Below, piece by piece: positions 1 through 34,545 of a DNA stretch of 64,000 bases. Position 1 is the first letter of the stretch, and each line of letters starts with the position of its first letter. The notes below the pieces were generated by a model. It saw only the letters and a list, made by a program, of their open reading frames with translations, had not been told where the DNA came from and ran no database searches. Source of the DNA: Antedon mediterranea (Eukaryota > Echinodermata > Crinoidea > Comatulida > Antedonidae); contig NC_092675.1 in NCBI RefSeq assembly GCF_964355755.1, positions 24,220,412 through 24,284,411 of the forward strand, in the 5' to 3' direction. Made by a program: the position numbers and the translations under genes.

Positions 1-3000
1 ATTCCTTTAAAAAGTATATATTCTAGAATGTGCCAATTATAGGACAACAGGCTTACTATAAATCAATTGTTGAAGTATACTACTATATAAATGTTTACAT
101 GGTCGATGTATAATGTAAATAGGGAACTTACCCGATGAGTAAGAATAAGATGTGTAAGGCCAATTATCTTCATCTGTAAAGAGTGCAATGTAGTTAGTTT
201 TATTTTAACATATCATAGTAAAGACCATCTCACTTTGTTTACTTACTTTGAATCCAATTTAGGCTACACATAAGATTATTTGGATAAACTCTGAAAGTTT
301 TATAGTTGTGTCAAAAATGTAAATCATAGTTGCTTTTATTACTGTTCAATTATATTCATTAAAGTCGAATATCGGATTTCTAAAAATAATGATAGTTAAG
401 TACGGTTTTGTTATTATTCATTACAATACACCCACTCGTATTCTCACTAACTATCCACGCAGAACTATAAAAAATTAGAAATATAAAACAGGACTTAGGT
501 ATAATGTTCTAATGAATCGCTCCATACAAGAAAAGCAATAATAAATTAATGGTGGCTGAAACATCTCCTGAAATAACTGTATCTTTATTTTTTACATTAT
601 ACGGATTTAATATGGAAAATGGATATTATTTTATATTAAGGAGGTTTAATTATCAATTGTAATTATGAAGTTGTGAAATTACACACACACTACTTTATCC
701 TCACTAGAGGGTGAGCTCGCTTCGCTCGCTCCCCCCTCTAGGAAGTGTAGACGATGGTTTTCGGAATGATAATGTTCTCCTTATACGTTTTCTGTCGGCT
801 ACCATTATTGAAAATGCTTGAAATTCGTAAAACTAAACTACTTTGTTTCAGTGTTTTAGATGATTAATAACATTTTAAAGTACAGTTTTTATTGTTTGGT
901 AGGGCCCTTTGGGGAGGCGGAGGTCATTTGAGGGAGGTGCTTATTCGAGGGATATATGTTAAATTTTGTAGTTTTAATAATATGGTAACATTTATAATCA
1001 ATAATAGATATGAAAAGTGCTAAAAGAATAACAAATGCTTGGTAAATAGTAGATAACAGTGCGGTGAATTCTACTACAAATAGTACCGTATAATTGTGTT
1101 GTTATAAGTATGTGGTTGGACGTTTATTAGATAGTTGGGTTGGGGGATTTTATTGGAGAGGCGTTTATTCAAATGAATACCATCCTAATAATTATTAATA
1201 CATTATTTAATTTAATCATCTTTTGAAACTAACTTCCGTGACAGAGTGGGCCCAAGAAAGAAGACATTATGGTACGGCTTGCAACATGGGCAGACATCTC
1301 GGTCCTAACGGGACACAGGAAGATAGCCTACAGTTATTCCTGCAAGCTTACTCAATAAAACTCACCTATCGGGATTTCACTCGAAAAATGTCTTATCATC
1401 AAATCTCCCTATGTAATTTTATAATACTATTCCGCACAATATATTCTGATTCTTTATGGCGTTTATTTAATTTGATCTTTATTAATTTGCAGTATAATTC
1501 CTATTATTTAACTACTGTACCTTCACACACGCGCCGCGGTATGTTTTAAAATAAACAAAAAACTGAAATGGCTATGATTAATGGCCTATATCTGATTTTT
1601 TTTTCGTCTTCCAAAAAACTGAAATGGCTATGATTAATGGCCAAATATTCTGGTTTTTTTTTCGTCTTCCAAAGGAACACTGTATTGATTGATGGAGAGT
1701 GCCTGTTTCCAGTAACCTTTAGGGTCAAATCTATTATTTTAACTGCACCCTTGTGTATAAAAGAGAGAAAATATTTGAAAACAGGTTGTTGCAAGGTGAA
1801 CTTATCTTAAACCCGGAAATTACTTTGACCGGGAAGAATTGAAATTGAGATGAAAATCTAATGTTGAAATCATAAATTGTGTTAAAAAACTCTTTATAAT
1901 ATCTTCCTAAGATAGAAATATAGAACAATAGCGTCGCCGTGAACACTAATGTTATCAAATCTACGTTTCGCGTTACATCTCAGATAGATAAGGTAGGTAT
2001 CCAAGGCGGAGATTTGTATCGAAGTTTTTGCATTGTGCTCGCCTATGTCAGAATTAACCATAATTTATATATAGATGAAAATGACTTACCATCTATTTCA
2101 AATGTCAGAATAAAATTGATAAAATCAACAAACTGAGAAACTCTGGTGTATACACCTGGAAAGTTTGGTTCCGCACAACCATATCCCCAACTCGTGATTC
2201 CAACAAGATGCCATGTACTGCCATTTACGCACATCAAGGGACCACCACTATCACCCTGTACAAAATATGTATATATAATAATTATTTCCACACATTTTCG
2301 CACAGATACTGTATTTTCAATTTACAAGTATTATACGGTATTGCAATAAATTCTATTTGTTAGTTAACGAACGTGTGTGTGAATATAATGCTTCGATTTT
2401 TGTATTTTTTTCAATTTGAATTCACTTATAAAGCATTTCCGATGTTGTAGATGAAAACGTAAATATGTATCTTACAAAAGATTATTGAGGATTGAGGAAT
2501 GTCATTAACTGTTATTCATTGTTCACAGAGGTAAGAATTTATTTTGAAAAACGTTTATGAAAAACTGTGAATAAAACAAAAGCAAACATTTACTTGACAA
2601 GCGTCTTTGCCGCCCTCTGGATGACCAGCGCAGATCATGTTATCAGTGACCGTAGATCCACTTAGGTTTCTTCGACACTCTTCTATGTCTACCAATGGGA
2701 CATTTGTATATTGTAGTATACTTGGAAGGGAACCTTTAAAATGCAATATTAAATAATATTAAATTTACACTAAGACACAATAATATATTCTTTGTTGTTT
2801 AAATACAGCAATATCAACATTGTTAGAATTAATAGACTTTAACAAAAGGCAAAAAGAATGTAGCGATAAATGCAACACTGATTGCAAATACTATTATCTT
2901 TTAAAGTGTATTAAACTGTGATAACTAATCAAATTTAACTTATTTAAATAAATTACACAATTGTTACCATCGCCTGAAACGCCCCATCCTGCAACATAAC

Positions 3001-34545: not shown

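Follow-up and report, generated by a model that had tools for sequence, protein, structure and literature searches.

Chains that contain more than one S1 protease domain have been described for human polyserases (PMC1435904) and beetle polypeptidases (PMC11172050), each with two or three protease domains, and for Nematostella NVJ_127465, a single gene with three (PMC6767649). As far as these accounts describe them, some multi-protease chains carry LDLa parts, and some of their protease domains are often inactive (PMC1435904, PMC11172050, PMC6767649). The insect protein Nudel is given the layout LDL(2)-SP-LDL(2)-SPH-LDL(3), with two protease domains (PMC11172050), and HrOvochymase of Halocynthia is described with three protease domains, the last without a typical triad, and five CUB domains (PMC9265791). 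NIDO, AMOP, VWD and EGF domains are given as typical of the mucin4-like proteins of the coral skeletal matrix (PMC4890752). Here it is proposed, with good confidence, that a single gene (gene B) would encode a membrane-mucin-anchored battery of nine trypsin zymogens that is perhaps self-activating.

The window, the whole stretch of 64,000 nucleotides that was analysed, corresponds to C6:24220412-24284411 of a 354-Mb, intron-bearing animal genome, and its comparison with itself (blast) returned units of ~5 kb, mostly 94-98% identical. There is strong support for window positions 1-34545 as the N-terminal part of a giant gene B (C6:24254956-24151091, minus strand, ~104 kb), whose product is predicted to have some 9,500 residues and to be a type I membrane protein, the explanation as a whole being considered likely. 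Starting from the signal exon, a simple gene finder, which scored codon log-odds and generic splice matrices and rewarded regions with homology, returned a single open chain (153 exons, 9,562 residues) with one stop at C6:24151091, in a model where the homology bonus favours the joining of known exons and a few tiny exons are probably spurious. The modelled chain consists, in order, of the signal, nine modules, CUB, LDLa, Ser/Asp/Tyr repeats, HYR, Sushi, NIDO-AMOP-VWD, EGF, SEA and a transmembrane helix. The nine LDLa-CUB-LDLa-trypsin modules, of 472 residues each from module 2 onward, share a reading frame, and one signal-peptide exon (window 34545) precedes them all. A sequence-only reading of the window had seen four or more modules in one reading frame, a count limited by the window edge; the array extends to nine, modules 5-9 lying beyond the left window edge, and nine T4 exons were found in it by a whole-genome trypsin search. 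The 36 exons previously placed in one frame were reproduced exactly in window 132-34545, comprising the signal, first LDLa, CUB, LDLa2 and T1-T4 exons, three complete modules of nine exons and the linker exon that comes next (Table 1).

Each module has the exon order linkA, linkB, LDLa1, CUB, LDLa2 and T1-T4, with phases from linkA to T4 of 1-1, 1-1, 1-1, 1-1, 1-1, 1-2, 2-1, 1-0 and 0-1, verified base by base in one module and the same in the remaining gene B modules of the gene model; a module thus starts and ends in phase 1. Module 1 has no linkA, linkB or LDLa1 of its own, the first LDLa exon serving instead. The lengths of linkA (27, 33 or 42 nt) and of linkB with its downstream homologues (51, 411 or 1635 nt) are all multiples of 3. 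In Pfam, a 472-residue module matched trypsin (E = 2.5e-72), CUB (1.2e-14) and LDLa (7.6e-7), with one LDLa per module, LDLa2 being detected solely with a model made from the gene B locus (2.8e-8). The nine copies differ by pS 0.0168 and pN 0.0028 (pN/pS 0.17; pairwise counts over equal-length exons, with 21 pairs for linkA, 28 each for linkB, LDLa1 and LDLa2 and 36 for the others, pairs not being independent). The Pfam E-values and this pN/pS confirm that the module pattern is not due to chance.

Table 1. Coordinates of the features of gene B and its paralogues; positions without a prefix are those of the window.
Feature	Position	Strand	Basis or remark
Gene B exon 1, predicted signal peptide, phase-1 donor AAG/GTGAGT	34473..34545	-	signal-like first-exon scan and gene model
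Gene B first LDLa exon, phase 1-1	33419..33529	-	61.5% identical to first LDLa of gene A
Module 1	17653..19847	-	triad intact
Module 1 exons	CUB 19847-19506, LDLa2 19389-19264, T1 19068-18897, T2 18805-18534, T3 18296-18157, T4 17818-17653		
Gap between modules 1 and 2 (530 nt)	17123..17652	-	without signal-like exon
Module 2	11303..17122	-	gene model and module comparison
Module 2 exons, first part	linkA 17122-17096, linkB 16899-16849, LDLa1 16451-16344, CUB 15943-15602, LDLa2 15457-15335		
Module 2 trypsin exons	T1 15166-14995, T2 14903-14632, T3 11923-11784, T4 11468-11303		
Gap between modules 2 and 3 (536 nt)	10767..11302	-	without signal-like exon
Module 3	7391..10766	-	gene model and module comparison
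Module 3 exons, first part	linkA 10766-10725, linkB 10528-10478, LDLa1 10081-9974, CUB 9590-9249, LDLa2 9104-8982		
Module 3 trypsin exons	T1 8813-8642, T2 8550-8279, T3 8038-7899, T4 7556-7391		
Module 4	2090..5454	-	gene model and module comparison
Module 4 exons, first part	linkA 5454-5413, linkB 5216-5166, LDLa1 4769-4662, CUB 4278-3937, LDLa2 3791-3669		
Module 4 trypsin exons	T1 3501-3330, T2 3239-2968, T3 2733-2594, T4 2255-2090		
LinkA of module 5	132..173	-	rest of modules 5-9 at C6:24190990-24220411
Gene A C-terminal half, tandem paralogue of gene B	41517..64000	-	matches to gene B and gene model
Gene C, third paralogue (L046, L048, L049)	C8:23216571-23242275	+	domain matches

The junctions between modules are uniform. 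The phase-1 T4 donor GATG/GTAAGT, which the sequence-only reading had given for every module, is present in all nine, the donor itself being identical while the intron a few bases past it varies among modules. The linker exons likewise proved to be of phase 1-1 with an acceptor, as claimed, and an in-phase Ser/Tyr linker exon follows every module, in frame in all copies; the interval from 7391 to 5454 runs exactly from the T4 end of module 3 to the linkA start of module 4. Three of the eight inter-module gaps measure 530-536 nt. The further claim, that no other candidate exon lies between modules, was examined for signal-like exons with a phase-1 donor, none of which occurs in the eight gaps (11,151 nt scanned); the gene finder placed a 33-nt exon, taken as spurious, in one gap, that before module 5. 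Because only ~1.2 signal-like exons would be expected by chance in 11,151 nt (from 21 per 200 kb on the plus strand), their absence alone carries little weight. In the same kind of scan, exon 1 was the sole signal-like first exon with a phase-1 donor found between the end of gene A and the first LDLa of gene B, and the gap after module 9 contains two overlapping signal-like candidates. Past the ninth T4 there are a linkA, a linkB-like S/D/Y-rich exon (411 nt), CUB, LDLa, LDLa and a second S/D/Y exon (1635 nt), and no trypsin. Since the nine domains share one signal exon, in-phase splice sites and short gaps, and two paralogous loci are laid out alike, one chain carrying nine trypsin domains is strongly supported at the level of the genome sequence; by the gene models, two or more S1 domains lie in one open reading frame in gene B (nine) and in gene A (three). 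Of the earlier picture of one zymogen string with at least four catalytic domains, the string is retained, with nine domains in one modelled chain, but the chain would go on into a MUC4-like, membrane-anchored tail.

Arrays of tandem trypsin genes are common, and the locus might instead be a row of nine independent trypsin genes of one module each, all having their own start and stopping shortly past T4. Reading through the T4 donor does meet a stop 4 to ~70 codons on, and a conserved ATG open reading frame (ORF) with a hydrophobic stretch lies between linkB and LDLa1 in eight modules (window 4958-5035 and seven copies). However, this arrangement was rejected after all gaps had been scanned for signal-like exons and the copies compared for a common stop, and it is held to be very improbable: the stop falls at different places in different copies; linkA and linkB would be left as orphans, their acceptors lacking an upstream partner, and yet they are in frame; three gaps measure 530-536 nt and the post-T4 introns of gene A 101-321 nt; and one copy, at C6:24220130, has lost the donor of the ORF. 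The same ORF bears on a second alternative, that the giant gene also has internal starts or ends and so yields, beside the full chain, shorter secreted forms with one or few trypsins. All module boundaries are in phase 1, so that a transcript could leave out whole modules and still be read in frame; moreover, the ORF has a phase-1 donor in seven of the eight copies and could possibly be an internal first exon, or else a chance frame. Given the donor lost in one copy, and with an amino acid altered by two of the four different changes that separate the eight copies, the ORF gives no clear sign of constraint, and such additional forms are considered quite unlikely.

It is also conceivable, if unlikely, that the number of copies was produced by the assembly, the poly-trypsin gene being real but having fewer or more modules. 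Modules 2-9 fall into two sequence subtypes, with module 1 apart, and some pairs are near-identical (differences of 0.18% for M5-M6, 0.28% for M2-M7 and 0.41% for M3-M8, with 0.87% for M4-M9 and 0.73% for M9-M3); as copies differ by as little as 0.18%, the assembled count may be wrong. Nevertheless, the copies can be told apart by 2.5-kb insertions (M2, M7), a 3.4-kb intron (M8) and a 1-kb insertion (M5), as well as by short versus long gaps and by the two subtypes, and an assembly effect would alter the number of modules, not the kind of gene. For the assembled array of nine modules, the pattern suggests that a three-module block was duplicated (M2-M7, M3-M8, M4-M9), although M9 is slightly nearer M3, and M5-M6 is, judged by its divergence, another recent copy. 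Such a pattern fits unequal exchange inside gene B, so that the number of modules may vary between individuals. The five module introns compared differ by 0.010-0.038. In the T1 exon (window 3330-3501 and its copies), pN (0.0117) exceeds pS (0.0063), unlike in the other varying exons, with V/L and E/K variants. A 663-bp repeat, by its look a mobile element, occurs with 97% identity at window 23908-24570 and 36555-37217, along with GACA microsatellites, and is also seen near the 5' side of gene A.

The tail of gene B has Pfam matches to NIDO (1.9e-30), AMOP (2.2e-9), VWD (3.1e-11), C8-3_MUC4 (2.3e-12), SEA (2.3e-11), EGF (5.3e-7) and EGF_CA (8e-22 to 3.7e-14), as well as to HYR (8e-24) and Sushi (2e-6), and a FAM171 match below its cut-off, the HYR, Sushi and FAM171 values resting on query pieces that differ slightly from the gene model. 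One S/D/Y repeat was tested and had no Pfam match. The penultimate exon encodes a hydrophobic helix followed by basic residues, and the tail thus has the features of a MUC4-like protein, that is, NIDO, AMOP and VWD in this order together with EGF and a membrane helix. Two sequences that resemble autocleavage motifs of mucins, GDPH in the VWD exon and FESGSIIANVDLVYQ (GSIIA) in the SEA domain, make shedding of the ectodomain possible. At C6:24180404-24176961 (minus strand), gene B also has five near-identical exons of ~109 residues, NCPPPVGTTI...ITCANDDCTELI, preceded by a diverged one; these repeats are CILP-like by eye, and the copy tested had no Pfam match.

The catalytic triad is kept in all nine trypsins of gene B (TAAHC, DIAL, GDSGG), as is Asp189. 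The best solved-structure match of the protease domain is enteropeptidase (E 1.4e-69), and in the alignment the triad, Asp189 and C122 are in register with it, under the residue numbers assumed here for these positions. The nine trypsins are apparently active enzymes. Each unit has an activation site R/IIGG, itself a trypsin site. Not one Lys or Arg occurs among the 917 residues of the 19 linker exons. In the whole gene B chain, Lys and Arg account for 322 of 9,562 residues (3.4%), with 3.7% in the nine-module part, 4.9-5.3% in its trypsin domains and 4.6% in the non-protease half, versus 7.8-17.0% in the open frames of seven of eight other trypsin loci of the same genome. This comparison took the longest open frame of eight single-exon trypsin matches elsewhere in the genome, L004 being dropped for its masked letters; L007 and L008, kept in the 7.8-17.0%, may be in the wrong frame or fragments, and the remaining five give 7.8-15.1%. 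Because the non-protease half is also low, the scarcity of Lys and Arg may reflect general acidity and not self-protection. Cutting of the chain into 472-residue units, as had been suggested earlier, is not supported, because the linkers lack Lys and Arg and cleavage at R/IIGG should leave the two halves joined through a C1-C122 disulphide.

Gene A, a tandem paralogue, has in the window a half with Sushi, EGF, NIDO-AMOP-VWD, many EGF, a Thr-rich exon (a 24-nt repeat, 43969-44724), SEA, EGF, a transmembrane exon (42012-41765) and a tail to 41517, with 19 EGF by motif count over the whole gene. Its colinear counterpart in gene B lies outside the window (C6:24172408-24151091), and colinearity of the two genes extends from the CUB that follows the trypsins as far as the transmembrane exon and tail. 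Identity of the best matches is ~25-54% between this CUB and the CILP-like repeats and mostly 70-97% once the Sushi domains are reached. The gene A model includes three trypsins, with 101, 195 and 321 nt from T4 to the next module exon; trypsins 1 and 3 keep the triad, trypsin 1 has Gly at the Asp189 position, and trypsin 2 has ASASC and PGPLMC at the expected His and Ser sites. Its own first exon is a weaker signal candidate than that of gene B. Additionally, gene A has a MAM domain (8.2e-32, Pfam), which was not seen in gene B.

The third paralogue, gene C, shows within 26 kb the order trypsin-LDLa-CUB-LDLa-LDLa-trypsin-CUB-LDLa x3 and, after these three LDLa and a further stretch, Thr-rich-SEA-EGF-TM-tail. 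From one T4 match to the next LDLa match there are ~120 nt, and five T4 exons were found by genome search, two of them within the examined region. Over the 40 kb inspected for gene C there was no match to a NIDO, AMOP or VWD exon, which suggests that the NIDO-AMOP-VWD block is variable. By their sequences, genes A, B and C belong to one family, of which this genome has at least three members. A possible fourth member is located at C3:9623455-9634055 (plus strand), with CUB and trypsin exons and, 57 kb downstream on the same strand, a NIDO exon at 9691052. Another NIDO exon, perhaps of a further relative, is found upstream of gene A at C6:24375299 (minus strand), and in a piece of a C1 cluster (L047) a trypsin is followed by an LDLa ~835 nt on.

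Enteropeptidase (TMPRSS15) shares LDLa, CUB and trypsin with gene B, and MAM with gene A. It has one protease, at the C-terminus, and an N-terminal type II anchor, whereas the gene model predicts for gene B a signal-like first exon and a C-terminal helix. The basic residues 96-99 of enteropeptidase are taken to read DDDDK; its NRRRKD loop aligns with NDYTSD in gene B and, with NDYTS in place of NRRRK, specificity for DDDDK is not expected, and an enteropeptidase-type specificity was rejected. Nudel, in the layout given, resembles gene B in having LDLa and protease domains but is without CUB or a mucin tail; membership of gene B in this group was rejected, with 21.4-21.6 bits against a cut-off of 25.2 for DUF1986, a model assumed to represent the Nudel region. 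Like gene B, the polyserases (human polyserase-1, -2 and -3, insect polypeptidases and Nematostella NVJ_127465) have several S1 domains per chain; as described, they have two or three, often including inactive ones, whereas gene B has nine, all with the triad, and a type I mucin-like anchor. Ovochymase is, like gene B, a polyprotease with several CUB and trypsin domains, although its description is without the LDLa, linkers, NIDO-AMOP-VWD and membrane tail of gene B (PMC9265791). With MUC4 and the mucin4-like membrane mucins, gene B has NIDO, AMOP, VWD, C8-3_MUC4, EGF and a membrane helix in common, but the account of mucin4-like proteins (PMC4890752) mentions no protease domain, and gene B has nine. 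Nothing closer, either a combination of trypsin and mucin or a chain with more trypsins, was found in the open-access literature, where absence is no proof. Compared with the chains so far described, which have two or three proteases, the novelty of gene B would be the joining of the polyserase kind to a MUC4-like membrane mucin.

In the mechanism proposed for gene B, the mucin-like stalk would hold nine trypsin zymogens off the cell surface, and each R/IIGG activation site could be cut by a trypsin-like enzyme, including an activated neighbour, making the battery perhaps self-activating. The Lys/Arg-free linkers and the Lys/Arg-poor chain would keep the string from digesting itself, and the C1-C122 disulphide together with the uncut linkers would keep the activated enzymes tethered, so that a single trigger could switch on a local cluster of trypsins. 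The autocleavage-like motifs in VWD (GDPH) and SEA (GSIIA) could later allow the ectodomain to be shed. Membrane anchoring, activation by itself or by neighbours and retention after activation are thus features that the predicted protein may have, as read from its domains and motifs. A role as a battery of trypsins on a digestive or other epithelial surface has about an even chance, with an egg-coat or body-surface role as a further candidate. Equally balanced between holding and failing is the full reading of gene B as a membrane mucin turned protease scaffold, with nine near-identical active zymogens, trypsin-proof spacers, mutual arming and continuing unequal exchange of whole modules within the gene, in whose number of trypsins individuals may differ.

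Gene B would join two usually separate protein classes, the membrane mucins and the trypsin-like zymogens. Nine active copies on a membrane mucin, if true, would be a natural experiment on how tethering and copy number affect a zymogen, the effects in question being avidity, neighbour-to-neighbour activation and retention after activation. Because the copies are near-identical and in one gene, their number may vary between individuals and could relate to phenotype.
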